NCBI GenBank assembly: GCA_025558095.1 | Contig: JAIVFI010000014.1 | Coordinates: 248,001 to 312,000 of the forward strand | From: Hyaloraphidium curvatum | Taxonomy: Eukaryota > Monoblepharomycota > Hyaloraphidiomycetes > Hyaloraphidiales > Hyaloraphidiaceae | DNA length: 64,000 nt | Direction: 5' to 3' | In this document: positions 1-5,912 of the stretch, one piece after another | Layout: each line of letters begins with the position of its first letter | Position numbering within the stretch: position 1 is the first letter of the stretch | Translations under genes and position numbers: made by a program | Notes under the pieces: model-generated | Told to the model about the DNA's origin: nothing | The model's input: only the letters and a program-made list of their open reading frames with translations | Database searches by the model: none

Positions 1-3000
1 AAGTTCACGGCGGAGCCCTTGACCCCGGCGCGGAGGCAGGAGTACCTCGACGCTACGCGCAATGGACACCTCGCGCAGGCCATGCTGGGCGTGCTGTCGG
101 CGATGGAGGCGGCTGCCGGGCTCGGGGGCAACGAGTTTATGTCGCGCGTCGAGGCGGTTTATCGCACGACTACGATCGGGGGTTTGGAGCCGCGGCACGG
201 GAACCCGGCCGACGCCAATGGCCGCTGGGTCTACGGGGACCTGTCCGAGATCGTGGACCCGCGGCTGCCGACGACCGAGATCTGCGCCAACTGCCCCAAG
301 GGCGACGTGGTACTGGGCTCCCGCCGCTACTTCCTTAACGAGACCAACAGGATCCTCTTTACCGCCCTGGACACCACCGCTTTGGACCGGCTTCGAGGTC
401 TGCTGGCCGAGACGAAGGTAGGCTCTCCTACGCCATGCACGCGCGCATGTCTGATTCGCGCACGGCGGTGTCGCAGGACGAGGCGACAAGGACGGCCATC
501 GGCAATGACATCGCCGTCATCGAGTTCGAGCTGCAGAAGCTGCACGCCCGCGACACGCAGCCCGCCGACTTCGACGATGCGCACTGGCCCAAGGCGATCC
601 GCGCACGCGCTCGCGTGATGGGCAACCTGGTCTTCACGGATGCCAGCAAAGTGTGCCCCCTCCTATTCGTGGGCATCGCGCGCACGCTGCCTCGGATGCG
701 TTTCCTGACAGCCCTTTTCCGCCCAGATCGACGGCGACGGTGATTGTTGCTGTTGCGACAGCATGTCGAAGATGATGGGAGGTGGCGACTGGGACGCCGA
801 CGTTGCGAGGCGCGCTCTGCTCCTTCACCGCCGGATCCAGCTGGAGCACCTCCGGCTGGAATTCGCAGCCTTCCGCCCGACCTTGGTCATCGGCCTGGGG
901 TCGAACATGGCCCGCATGCTGTGCTCCACGAGCGGAAGCCCCCACCTCCCCAAGCGCGCGCTGCCGTTCGCCACCGGCGGCATCCTCAACGTCGAGGTCG
1001 GCGTGGGCGGCTCCGATCTCGCGACCGCCTTCCAGCTCGCGGTCGCCCCGCACCCCGTGGCGTGCGCACTGCTGCCCTCCCATCTGGCCGACTCGGTCAC
1101 CGCCCTCTGCCTCCTCCCGAACCCTGCCAAGGCGGACGCCGGCGCGGTGTTCGACCCGTCGTCGTACTCAGCGGCGGCGGCACTCAACGCGGCATCGCAG
1201 CTCGCAGCGCACACCATCTTTCCGCAGGTCTTTGCGTTCTGGCCCGAGCGGGGCACCGAGGGCGTCACCCACCTCGAGTCGCTCCCCGCGGCTCACCAGC
1301 CGATACCTGAGTCCTTTATTCCGAGCTGGCTCATTTCGACATGCGCAAACATCTTCACCTCGCGGTTCAAGGAGAAGTTCAAGGACCGTTTCCAGGCCTA
1401 CCTCGAGATCTTTGCCGCAAATGGCCTCGGCGACCTCGCTTTCGGCAAGTCCCGTTCGCACCTGGACTCGGCCACCCGCGCGCGGATCGGGCAAGGCGCG
1501 CCCGCACCGCCGGCAGGCCTCCTGGGCGCGCTGGCCTACCGGGCGCGGTGTCTGCTGGTCCCGCGGTCCGGTCAGGCGGCGTCTGCTGCGGTCGCCGAGG
1601 ATGGGGATGAGGTTGCCGTGCTGCTCGAGGACGACGGGCAGGATGCGGTGGCGCTGACGCCGCGAGAGAGCGTGTCCGCCATCTATGGCCTGAAGCCGCA
1701 GGTTGCGGATATCGTCAAGGATCTGGATGGCCTCGGGCGGCATTTCTTGGACCGTTCGTCGGAGAGGACGCGCCCCAGCACCCAGTCCCTCCTGGATGCC
1801 GCGCGCGACCTTCTCTTTGGAGCTGCGGCCGGCGCCGCGCGCCTCCGTCCGATCGCCGACATCCGCCGCGACGTCGGGCTCGGCGAGGTTGCGTTGACGG
1901 ACTTGAAGCTGGACGATAAGCTTGGCTTTGTCCGGAGCGCCGTCGTGGCCGGGGACCTGAACCAGCGGCTCACGCCGAGGCTCCACGCGGGGGATCGCTT
2001 GTCGAGCCTGGACAAAGCCGTATTTGGGAAGTGGCTCACCGCCTACATCGGCTTCCTGCTGCGCCAGGGCGAAGGCGGGAAGGACGAGTTCGGTGCTCCC
2101 GTGTCGTTCGGCCTGGCGGACTCCCTGGACCACTGCAGGATCCCTGGGGCGGCCCGCCGTGGAGTTCTGGCCAAAGTCAAGGAGTGCCTCCGGGACCAGG
2201 ATCCCGGCGTGAATCTCATAGGAGGGGACGTGTCCACCCTCCTCCGCAACTACGCCTTGCCAGGCGCCGCGGCGCTCGGCGCCGGCTCCCCCCGAGATCG
2301 ACTTCATCGTGAATCGAGCAACTACATCGCGTCGAACGGTGTCGCCACCAGGGTGCTCTTTGAGCACCCGCATCATACCAAGGGCTTCAACCGGCTGGGT
2401 GGAGCGCGCAGTGCGGCCAAGGTAATCGCATGCTCGCAGCCAAGTTGACGGTCCGCTGACGGTCGCACCACCTTCCTCGCAGCCGGGTCAGGGTGATCTG
2501 CCTCAAGATGCCAAGTGGGTGACTGGTTGCGTCGGGTGCCCAAGAGGAAGGGGCTGCGATCGCCAGTATCCGAGCTGCAGGTGAGCTTTGCCCCTGTCAA
2601 TTGGTGCCCATTTCCTCCTATCCCTAACTGTCTGCTCACCCGTAGCGCCTGCACCAAAGTGAATCGACAGTGCTTCTACGAGATGCCGGTGTGCGAGTGC
2701 TGCGACAAGGCGCGTCGCGTCTGCGACGGCAGAATGCCCTCGTGCGGGTAGGTTCCCGTCTTGGACACCTCCTCGCACCTCGCGCTGACTGATACGCTTT
2801 CAAACATCAGGCAGTGCACGTATGCAGGGGACACCTGCTCGTGGGACCTTTTGACTGCCCAAGGAAGGCGGAAGGCCGGCGACGCCGAGGACTTTGCCTG
2901 GATCTCCCACGCGCACCACCGCACCATCCCCGAGCTCGCCGGCTGGCATGTTCCCGGCGCCGGCGCCTCGTCGACGCACGCCTTCATGCGTGGCGTGGTG

Positions 3001-4136
3001 CTCGAGGGCGAACTCTGCACCAGCTCGGATCCCGGCCCCCGGAACGGCATCTACTTCCAAAAGATGAAGCAGGGCGACAAGGACGTCGTCTACTACTTCG
3101 ACCACAAGCCAAGCGTCGAGACGGCCACCGACGTCGCGTGCAACATCGTGGCCGCCTCGGTTGACCCGGGTGAGAAGGGCGACACCATTTCGGTCACCGC
3201 CTTTGTCCAAGGGAAGGACGGCAAGCTGGAGGAGCTTACGCTCGACCGCTTGTTCCGGCCGCTGTCGTCGAAGGGTTACAGGGCGAAGGACGAGGCGGCG
3301 CGGCCCGACGAGTGGTGGACGGAGCACCAGGACCTGTCGACGCTGATGGCTGAGGTGTCGAAGTCGCCGTACCCCGTCGACGGCATGCTCGCAGGTGGGC
3401 ATTGACGAAGCTGCTCTGGCTCGTGGTCGCTCACCCGCTCCTATATTCGCCGATCCGCCTCGCAGCGTCTGCGTTCCTCAACCACGCCGGCCCGCTCCTC
3501 GACCACGCGCAGAGCCACCACTCCCAGCTCGCCAAGGAGTACCGCTTCCGCGAGAAGCAGGCCCGCCAGGCGGCCATGAAGAACTGGATCCTCGCGGCCG
3601 GGGAAGCGGTGTGGCGCCAAAAGGTCTACCTGGAGGCCTTCAACGCCCACGTGGAGAAGGAGCGGCCGAAGCTCGGCGAGCCGCCGCCTGACCGCGACCA
3701 CGCGCGCAAGATCGAGGAGGGTGCGCACGCGGCGGGCAGGGACGCGGTGGCGGCGATCGAACGGATCCCCAACCCCATCGTCCTGTGCGGTGCCGGCCAG
3801 GGCTCGGGCTCCCGCATGCCGTACGTCGGCAGCATCGCCGAGTTCCTCTCCCGCCACTTCCTCGTCTTCCTGCTGGGCGAGTACTTCACCTCCCAGCTGT
3901 GCCCGACGTGCCTCGCCAAGCTCGAGCCCAACCCGCTCCAGCGCGGCGACGTCGTGCACAAGCGCTGTGCGACCTGCAAGCGCAACCCCGACCGCGACGG
4001 CTTCGACGGCGAGCTGGTTCTCAACAAGAACCGCTCCGCCACCCTCTGCCTCGTCAGGATCTTTCTTCACATCGTCGCCACTGGCGACCGGCCCGCAGTC
4101 TTCACCCACCGGGCCGCCTCCCGCAACGCCGGATAA
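1..4136 (+). CDS. Fanzor-type (eukaryotic TnpB-like) RuvC nuclease with tandem Zn2Cys6-like clusters, 5'-partial
   Basis: Exons 1-417, 477-650, 727-2421, 2483-2580, 2646-2747, 2811-3394 and 3466-4136 join in frame through GT-AG introns of 59-76 bp into at least 1246 residues, still open at the left edge. The C-terminal part carries a TnpB/Fanzor RuvC core: RuvC-I Asp in SVDPGEKGD (codon 3163, about residue 947), RuvC-II Glu in LLGEYFTS (3879, residue 1162), a CPTC...CATC zinc ribbon, and RuvC-III Asp in NPDRDGFD (3996, residue 1201). A SNGVATRVLFEHP segment (2332-2370) resembles the pre-RuvC strand of Fanzor proteins. Between it and RuvC-I lie two clusters spaced C-x2-C-x5/6-C-x6-C-x2-C-x6-C (2528-2673 and 2692-2838), the spacing of fungal Zn2Cys6 DNA-binding domains. 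The first 700 residues are not recognisable. By homology it would be an RNA-guided DNA endonuclease of a mobile element. All three catalytic acids are present and there is no internal stop, so it may be active. The N-terminal exons could belong to another gene, but splice phase supports one. Confidence 0.75.
2528..2838 (+). other. Tandem Zn2Cys6-like cluster exons inside the Fanzor gene
   Basis: Cluster 1 has Cys codons at 2528, 2537, 2555, 2576, 2650 and 2671. Cluster 2 has them at 2692, 2701, 2722, 2743, 2815 and 2836. Each cluster is cut by a short intron (2581-2645; 2748-2810) at the same place, in phase 2 of the codon after the fourth cysteine. Both contain a CD...PSC core. This is what tandem duplication of one exon would leave. 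Confidence 0.7.
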
Positions 4137-4339
4137 ACCTACCCGGCACTTATCTGAATGAGTGAGTCTCGCGCCCGTCGATGGGGTATCAGGGTGTTGC
4201 GAGCTTTTGATGGGGGCAGTTAACTGACGGAAAGGCCCCCCTCCCCCGCAATTATCTCTCCAGCATACACGTCGAGCAGTAGTGAGCGCGAGATCGAGAT
4301 AACCGGCACCGGAGCGGACGGGCGAGTGACATCGGAAAA

Positions 4340-4476
4340 CCCGGACAAAACATTCCCGACATTTTCGACATTCTAAATGTTCCGAATGTCGCGAATGCTA
4401 AAAGTAACATGTCTACATTCGAATGCATTCAAATGTCGCAACAGGGAAATTTGAATGCCGCGGAATGACCGGGAAT
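4340..4476. repeat. AT-richer GAATG/CATTC repeat, copy A
   Basis: A block dense in gaatg and cattc words (for example gaatgtcgcgaatg) that contrasts with the GC-rich surroundings. A core reading tacattcgaatgcattc and then aaatgtcgc (about 4411-4440) recurs in altered form in copy B, in the same orientation about 1.46 kb away. It starts about 200 bp after the Fanzor stop codon. Confidence 0.55.
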
Positions 4477-5777
4477 GCAGCTCTTCCACAGCAGCTTTCC
4501 GGCCACGGATAGGCTCGTATCGAGTACAGCGAGGCAACTGCGTGTATTGTGCATCCTTCTACGCTACATCAGGATCTTCCGACGCCGTCCAGGTGCCGCC
4601 CAGGTGGAGGTGGAAGGTTGAGTTGTCGCAAATTGCCCGGAGCGTGGTGTCGAATTGAAGTCCCGCGCGGTTGCTGGACGGGAGGTGGGAGAAAGTCGAC
4701 ATCGGCGAAGTCTGGCAGGTGCGACAGAGCGGTACTCGCAAGTGCACTTGGGAGGTGGCGTTCGGCTGGGAGGGGAAGAGTGAGCACAGTCCGAAGGAAA
4801 GACAGCAGCGCGACTCACTTGGAGAACCACGCAAGCTGCGAACGAAGTCACGAGAACGCTGGAAAGAAGTACAAGCTCACCTAGAGTAGTAGGCCACGTT
4901 GTCGAACTCCCGGAATCTGGAGCGGAGGAGAGGAGGAAGGTGAGGGTAGCGTGAGCAGGAGTCAACCAAAGCACGCGCGTGAGGCGGACCGGGCTAGCGA
5001 CATTAGCACCGACTGCAGTCCATGTAGAAAAGTGCCGGTATTGCTGGGCTTGACGGCCGAGGGGCAACGGAGTCGTCTGGAGAGAGAACGCCGTGAGCGA
5101 CCCGCCGAAGGAGACCGCCCCGCAACTCGGAAACCCACCGTGCGCGCCGCCCGAAACCGCGGGACGCTGCAGGAGATGTCATGAAAAAGGCGGAGCCGTT
5201 GTCGACTGCGGCGCTCTCGTGGCAGTAAGGTGTCCGCGGTGTCTGAATTCGAAGTGTTTTTGAGAAGCGGAGCTTTCCCGACTTCCTTCTGACACGTGCG
5301 TTGACGATCCGAAGCAAAGACGAGACCAGACTGGAGCTCAAGTGTGCGGAACTGAAGCAATGAATATCATTCAGTCTCACATTTCGCTTCGGCTCGCCTC
5401 CCCGTCGCCCAGACTGAGTGCCCGTAATCGCGCTCCCGCCAACACCTGGTCGCTCAGAACCGCGTCGCTTCGGTGTGCAGAATGCTCATCGACTATGCCT
5501 CGGCTTTGTGCTGTCTCAAACAGGGAGCTTTGTGCAGCAGCGGTTCCAGTCTCCCGCCGAAGTTGCCCGCCGTTCGTTCGGGAGTCAGCCCCCCAATCAG
5601 ACACGATTACAACTTCAGTCCAAGCACGCGGCGCGCGGGACAGGGTCCCATAGTCGTCCCTGAGCTGCAGTTCTTACTGCCTGATTCGGTGGCGCGATTC
5701 GAGGCCCGCAGTTCGGCGCCATCGGTCGACCCCATGAACGAGTTGCCCTGACTTCAGCGCACCGCCTGCGCAACGGG

Positions 5778-5912
5778 GAGCATTCGTCAACATTCAGCGC
5801 CTCCGAATGTTCTATAGAGAGCATTTAAATGTCGAGAATGCTCGGAATGTTTCGTGTACATTCGAAATGCTTCGGGAATGTCGCGAATGATTCCGAATGC
5901 TATCGGGGGGGT
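5778..5912. repeat. AT-richer GAATG/CATTC repeat, copy B
   Basis: Second gaatg/cattc-rich block. It shares the core tacattcgaaatgcttc and then ggaatgtcgcgaatg (about 5857-5890) with copy A, in direct orientation. The two copies bracket about 1.3 kb. They could be element ends, remnants of a minisatellite, or a regulatory array. Confidence 0.5.

Follow-up and report, generated by a model that had tools for sequence, protein, structure and literature searches.

The window considered here comprises 64,000 nucleotides of the Hyaloraphidium curvatum genome (contig JAIVFI010000014.1, here C14, positions 248,001 to 312,000 of the forward strand). Its first 4,136 nucleotides hold the 3' part of a giant predicted gene, carried by a mobile element, whose reading frame joins a TnpB/Fanzor-type RuvC-II and zinc-ribbon C-terminus to a conserved pair of Zn2Cys6 clusters. 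The entire gene is predicted at C14:242348-252136: its 12 exons, separated by 11 introns of 58-76 nt, encode 3,024 residues and contain no internal stop. The ATG (C14:242348) lies 5.65 kb upstream of the window edge, five further introns are located upstream of the window, and the first residue encoded within it is number 1779. An initial annotation had proposed a seven-exon gene; the seven exons do join in frame through GT-AG introns, but the window cuts the gene and they are the last seven of twelve.

All features lie on the plus strand, and the frame is open once the window introns (59-76 nt; 418-476, 651-726, 2422-2482, 2581-2645, 2748-2810 and 3395-3465) are spliced out. The 3' part of exon 6 occupies 1..417, the exon itself beginning at C14:246231, 1.77 kb left of the window. 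Exons 7 (477..650) and 8 (727..2421) encode the pre-RuvC region, and exon 8 has a close copy on contig C5 and distant copies on C8 (two), C31 and C17. The cysteine pattern places the first part of cluster 1 in exon 9 (2483..2580, cluster from 2528), and exon 10 (2646..2747) carries the end of cluster 1 (to 2673) and the start of cluster 2 (from 2692). By alignment, exon 11 (2811..3394) holds the end of cluster 2 (to 2838) and then the RuvC-I motif DPG (D2725, codon 3163-3165), and exon 12 (3466..4136) holds the RuvC-II residue E2940 (3879-3881), the zinc ribbon (3900-3977) and a RuvC-III-like helix with Asn for Asp (NKN, 4023-4031), ending in the stop codon TAA (4134-4136). An inverted repeat, GCCGG-N10-CCGGC, lies across the stop codon (4128..4147), and the 3' untranslated end of the element follows (4137..4247). 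Structures predicted from single sequence had mean pLDDT values of 45.0 for exon 12 and 36.6 for exon 8, too poor for a fold search.

Copies and ends of the element

When the last reading frame was searched against the genome, 17 matches were found, at a minimum of 11 loci, a lower bound given that only the best candidates were scored. The copies fall into two families. Family A has seven loci: the window copy on C14, C5:735-744k, C8:319067-332501 (C8a), C31:133551-147040, C8:80-90k (C8b), C17 and C15. Family B consists of four more distant loci, on C30, C2 (953k), C13 and C11. In a splice-aware alignment (own script), C8a, C31 and C8b match the window protein from residues 11-12 to 3021-3024, with identities over aligned residues of 1165/2878, 1156/2874 and 1041/2740, respectively. 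Frameshift marks are absent from C31 and C8b and number two in C8a. Over the first ~500 residues the alignment proposes many short exons, which are uncertain. In the matched protein parts, the C5 copy is 91-95% identical to the window copy; it has an upstream truncation, an internal duplication and one frameshift mark. The truncated C17 copy has four frameshift marks, and C15 is a 470-bp end piece lying inside the last exon. Scans of viral contigs and of bacterial and archaeal genomes found no relative, a second viral DNA pattern gave no match either, and a sequence search of the PDB with the family-A C-terminus gave chance-level matches only.

Over 13.4-13.5 kb the C8a and C31 copies are 94.9% identical; the shared block ends sharply, and the flanks are unrelated. 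The right end of the element lies about 110 nt past the stop codon, which in the window is at ~4247, where similarity to C5 stops. The C5, C17 and C15 copies share the 3' part only (4.5, 2.6 and 0.47 kb), and introns are kept in the partial copies of C5 and C17. In family B, the 3' end is common to all four copies, the matches of C30 and C11 being shorter. These comparisons establish a fixed 3' end for the predicted element and support carriage by a mobile element, with sharp-ended copies on different contigs and truncated copies reaching the same 3' end. The 3,024-residue gene is the only one recognised in the ~13.4-kb element. Terminal inverted repeats amount at most to a shared 6-nt word in both full-length copies; target duplications are not convincing in any of five copies, with shared words of 7 nt or less taken as chance; and no transposase was recognised in Pfam scans, which covered pieces of the protein. 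Fanzor elements of the MCi-2 type from Mucor similarly have 'fuzzy' 5' ends, alignable 3' ends and no recognisable terminal inverted repeats, but they also show target duplications of 11-12 bp, and one MCi-2 subfamily has a partial Crypton transposase (PMC3627910). Neither trait is seen here.

Upstream of the gene, a 231-nt stretch (C14:240917-241144, L005) is 75% identical to C8a, the last part more so, at a distance at which coding dS is ~1 (window/C31 1.06). The stretch holds donor- and branch-point-like words and is crossed by short open frames; it is taken as non-coding, and may perhaps be a conserved 5' untranslated exon. A further match of 90 nt indicates that the window element reaches left to at least ~C14:239,963. 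Elsewhere, the 45 bp at C1:1157782-1157826 (L112) perfectly match a segment of the 3' untranslated region of the C31 element. Some 100 nt past the right end of the window element, positions 4345-5890 contain inverted repeats built of GAATGTCG-like words, with arms of 28 nt (4345-4372 and 5828-5855) that are 82% complementary and 1,455 nt apart, perhaps a small non-autonomous element.

The tandem Zn2Cys6 clusters

Cluster 1 (residues 2556-2582, window 2528-2673) and cluster 2 (residues 2589-2616, window 2692-2838) sit between the pre-RuvC part and RuvC-I, as the initial annotation had it. The observation is now stronger than first stated, because all twelve cysteines are kept in each of the six copies long enough to include the clusters (C15 is too short), in the pattern CX2CX4-8CX6CX2CX6-8C followed by CX2CX6CX6CX2CX6-8C. 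Cluster 2 satisfies the Zn2Cys6 consensus, CX2CX6CX5-12CX2CX6-8C, in every copy. Exon 10, which joins both clusters, is 102 nt long in all six, making it unlikely that the cluster exons belong to a separate gene. Against a PF00172 (Zn_clus) cut-off of 21 bits, two of the four copies scanned, the paralogues L035 (27.2 bits) and L037 (26.2), score above it, the window copy (20.6) just below it and the C5 copy (17.8) below it. In the window copy each cluster is split by an intron directly past the fourth cysteine, and because both introns are in the same phase (phase 2), the second cluster is likely to have arisen by duplication of an exon unit. Between C8a and C31 the zinc pair shows 2 nonsynonymous and 4 synonymous changes (dN/dS 0.16), numbers too small to use.

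A one-frame cluster pattern missed even family A, because introns split its clusters, and splice-aware alignment of three pair sequences was used instead. By this means the pair was not detectable in any of the four family-B stretches, which scored 38-53, compared with 39-49 for the best of eight shuffles per stretch and 134-189 among family-A members.

There are 96 PF00172 matches genome-wide, among them nine neighbouring pairs. Four loci were chosen for having two neighbouring Zn_clus matches, and all four contain a Zn2Cys6 doublet in a long open frame without RuvC, one of them matching Fungal_trans just under the cut-off. Such genes are a possible source of the inserted pair. The element clusters share with fungal Zn2Cys6 transcription factors the cysteine pattern and the CDGxxPxC signature, and with these four loci the tandem arrangement; they differ in being fused to a RuvC protein, in having an intron inside each cluster and in spacing, the cluster starts lying 33 residues apart rather than the 47-79 of the same-genome tandem genes. 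L113-L116, each a long open frame in which Zn2Cys6 clusters stand in tandem, seem to be a family of double-cluster transcription factors in this genome.

The TnpB/Fanzor-type C-terminus

The C-terminus has a RuvC-I DPG (D2725), a glutamate (E2940) six residues ahead of the first CxxC, and a CxxC-x18-CxxC ribbon. In an alignment of five sequences, four from family A and one from family B, the invariant features are the D and G of RuvC-I (DFG or DVG in family B), NPIV-x2-G-x-G, E-x6-CP-x-C and K-N-x-S-A-T-L-C. The last helix starts NKNRSATLCL in the window copy and reads [NE]KNxSATLC across the families, where the TnpB counterpart is HRDxNAAxN. An acid five residues past the last cysteine (four in family B) is present without the usual spacing. 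The published Fanzor motif of Bao and Jurka (2013), D-X(125,275)-[TS][TS]XX-C4 finger-X(5,50)-RD (PMC3627910), is fitted by the window copy, with 217 residues between D2725 and T2943, TSQL-CPTC and an RD after 5 residues. The D of this RD lies seven residues past the last cysteine, where C8a, C31 and C8b have His or Gly, and the RD is without counterpart in these three and in the family-B rows of the alignment. It is concluded from the alignment that the third RuvC acid is absent or displaced.

Comparison by hhalign with a viral TnpB profile, made from 20 of 26 viral TnpB loci found with seeds that have the glutamate at the same alternative place, gave a score of 41.3 over the whole segment. 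The C-terminal part scored 38.9, and none of 100 column shuffles exceeded 21.2; the confident columns are those of RuvC-II and the ribbon only. Over RuvC and ribbon, dN/dS is 0.144 for C8a/C31 and 0.186 for window/C5 (own Nei-Gojobori script, intron-split codons excluded), which indicates purifying selection, and such conservation among paralogues excludes chance as the origin of the predicted domain. Like Fz1/Fz2 Fanzors and TnpB, the protein is carried by a mobile element and has a RuvC-I DPG, the alternative glutamate six residues ahead of CxxC and a C4 ribbon (PMC10711439, PMC3627910). Unlike them, it has 3,024 residues rather than 400-700 (PMC10432273), a DPG-to-E spacing of 212 residues, outside the 120-160 of the published Fanzor pattern (PMC10711439), Asn at RuvC-III, and additional Zn2Cys6, ubiquitin-like and XPG-like parts. 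PpFz1 is a precedent for a Fanzor in which an additional domain brings a new interaction, but its Fanzor RuvC Insertion (FRI) lies inside RuvC and binds cyclophilin, whereas here a module of DNA-binding type precedes RuvC-I (PMC11423790).

The stop-codon hairpin

The GCCGG-N10-CCGGC repeat occurs exactly once per stretch in all seven family-A copies, 102-123 nt from the right end in six of them, the end of C8b not being defined by comparison. Family B has TACCTG-N10-CAGGTA, without CGG, over its own stop codon in all four copies. Among five distinct hairpin sequences, all 25 cells pair, and two of the five pairs are changed on both sides between families A and B; 15 of 500 shuffles equalled this result, and sliding the partners by 1-3 columns left no pair changed on both sides. 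As double-stranded DNA, the family-A hairpin is CGG-N10-CCG, a candidate Zn2Cys6 site, and its spacing is one that Zn2Cys6 regulators such as Put3 use. The CGG/CCG stem is present in the branch with the zinc pair and gone in the branch without a detectable one. As RNA, it is a conserved hairpin close to where TnpB elements encode their guide scaffold. An Rfam search of the window and its 3' end gave no match, and a second, downstream hairpin was rejected on the grounds that it does not hold in all families.

Upstream domains and related genes

Residues ~628-1052 look XPG/FEN1-like, with D60, E142, E302, D304, D331 and D333 (alignment numbering) invariant in three of three paralogues. The catalytic residues of FEN1 served as a guide. 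Acid order and identity (D, E, E-x-D, D-x-D) are those of XPG/FEN1-like (PIN) nucleases; at the seventh position, where FEN1 has GSDY, the proteins differ in having His-Asn (GSHNT). The dN/dS of this part is 0.32 (C8a/C31), and a profile of the C-terminal 150 alignment columns scored 25.3 against the XPG-like domain of L008, with none of 40 shuffles as good. Pfam gave no match for such a domain in the window copy. These data point, weakly, to a probable XPG/FEN1-like nuclease domain in the N-terminal part. In addition, the paralogue L037 has a ubiquitin match (PF00240) near its start, in two stretches, at E 1.2e-8.

The L008 locus (C5:331500-341000, minus strand) has an open frame with fuller XPG-like motifs (FDGK, TDSDYL and LGNDY) and, downstream on the same strand, frames with DVG, VDEYLSSQRCPRC, HRD and a Fanzor-like ribbon. 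If, as we infer, these frames form one gene, L008 probably represents another type of XPG-Fanzor gene. A one-frame search, which also misses intron-split clusters, detected no zinc-cluster pattern there, and the PDB search with its XPG-like domain gave chance-level matches only. A 1,189-aa open frame at C16:574007-574189, with weak XPG_I and L008-like matches, is possibly another member. L006 and L007 (C2:393-403k and 423-431k) are Fanzor-type frames with a zinc ribbon and RD; that of L006 is preceded by a frame with an OTU-protease match under the cut-off, and a further L006 frame resembles a Tc1/mariner transposase. Near the ends of the ribbon frames of L006, L007 and L008, no stop-codon hairpin of the kind described above was found.

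Proposed function and alternative explanations

On balance, the product is probably an element protein derived from a Fanzor, with the zinc clusters adding protein-based DNA binding. Such a protein would serve propagation of its own element and recognise the element's 3' end, the site of the stop-codon hairpin. The RuvC part would form a guide- or hairpin-RNA-binding platform for DNA targeting, and the zinc pair would add protein-based reading of CGG half-sites. Because the third RuvC acid is Asn, cutting would fall either to a RuvC whose metal site is altered or to the XPG-like domain.

Several observations weigh against this proposal. The initial annotation had described three RuvC acids and a ribbon; D2725, E2940 and the ribbon stand, but the RuvC-III Asp is replaced by Asn in all five aligned sequences of both families, and the intact D-E-D nuclease site has to be given up. 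The TnpB/Fanzor identity, upheld by the profile comparison, is not recovered by Pfam, where TNB (PF07282) reaches 16.1 bits, under the cut-off of 26.3 (14.4 in L037), and the RuvC-I segment alone, pairing DPG with DLG, is not significant against TnpB (P 0.15). Selection is weaker outside RuvC, with dN/dS of 0.52 over the whole C8a/C31 length and of 0.82 over the first 560 residues, where exons are uncertain. Within the zinc pair, window/C5 gives dN/dS of 1.3 (10.5 nonsynonymous and 2.5 synonymous of 13 changes, numbers too small to use), and all cysteines remain despite this ratio. The stretch of the window copy that corresponds to the ubiquitin region of L037 has no Pfam match at E 1, the family-A XPG-like profile scored 18.9 against four host XPG proteins, not significant with one of 40 shuffles better, and the XPG_I_2 match of L008 (E 0.0093) is under the Pfam cut-off. 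As regards the hairpin, chance alone would yield the pattern 0.53 times per 64 kb, so that its weight rests on conservation, and its covariation represents a single evolutionary contrast, A against B. The hairpin can also be a pure RNA structure unrelated to the zinc pair. A globally well-folded 3' RNA was rejected, since the last 113 nt folds no better than shuffles in six of seven copies (z -0.4 to 0.8), which leaves an omega-RNA hypothetical; the sole outlier is C8b (z -3.7), whose stretch is probably mostly an intron of the 3' untranslated region.

Two alternatives retain appreciable, though minor, weight. TldR is a bacterial derivative of TnpB in which RuvC has been lost. It is possible, if on the unlikely side, that the RuvC domain here is likewise catalytically dead and that the protein binds under the guidance of RNA, or of protein only, with the zinc clusters aiding its seating on DNA and no cleavage by RuvC. 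RNA-guided transcription factors are how the TldR family is described (PMC13418256). In favour of such a binder is the Asn invariant in five of five sequences, with the family-A domain still under purifying selection. Nevertheless, the RuvC-I Asp and RuvC-II Glu are kept, which a pure binder need not do, the XPG-like acids are mostly kept, and the element has still spread.

The second alternative, equally tentative, concerns the zinc pair, which may descend from transcription-factor clusters without having retained DNA binding and act as a structural or RNA/protein-binding module. In cluster 2, the charge of the Cys2-Cys3 interval differs among copies (DKARRV, EAAERD, QKKNRV), and the corresponding interval in cluster 1 is 4, 5 or 7 residues instead of 6. 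Recognition of DNA by the pair is favoured over such a module by the retention of all cysteines in every copy covering the clusters and by the distribution of the CGG/CCG stem, which follows that of the detectable pair.

A domesticated host gene family, spread by segmental duplication in the absence of an active mobile element, would fit the low copy number (seven family-A and four family-B loci, a lower bound), and the lack of target-site duplications in five of five copies and of terminal inverted repeats beyond 6 nt in both full-length ones. It is nonetheless improbable, as the blocks have sharp ends and unrelated flanks, and truncated copies of differing length keep the same 3' end. An annotation artefact combining cluster and RuvC exons from different genes or pseudogene pieces is very improbable: the gene model does come from sequence alone, and the C5 duplication and the four C17 frameshift marks are irregularities, but the 102-nt exon recurs in all six copies and dN/dS is well below 1 over the RuvC part.

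Implications for Fanzor elements

The larger discovery lies outside the window, in a giant single-gene element family with predicted Fanzor-type C-termini. A much bolder generalisation, rather unlikely as a whole, would be a superfamily of such elements whose proteins unite a Fanzor-type RuvC and an XPG-type nuclease, with a Zn2Cys6 pair captured in one branch. Its members would propagate from their 3' ends without a known transposase, by RNA- and protein-guided recognition of the terminal hairpin, and the truncated copies left behind would retain introns. The initial annotation knew of no described example of the domain combination, and in the literature searched, thin on subscription journals and preprints, none was found for Fanzor with Zn2Cys6, XPG or basidiomycet, or for TnpB with zinc cluster. 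With this coverage, the negative is weak evidence of novelty.

The biological role of Fanzors is stated to be unknown (PMC10432273). A branch with an added protein DNA-reader, a possible second nuclease and an altered third RuvC acid would be a natural test of how Fanzors serve the elements that carry them, for which the covarying stop-codon hairpin and the CGG-N10-CCG site provide two concrete and separable predictions.

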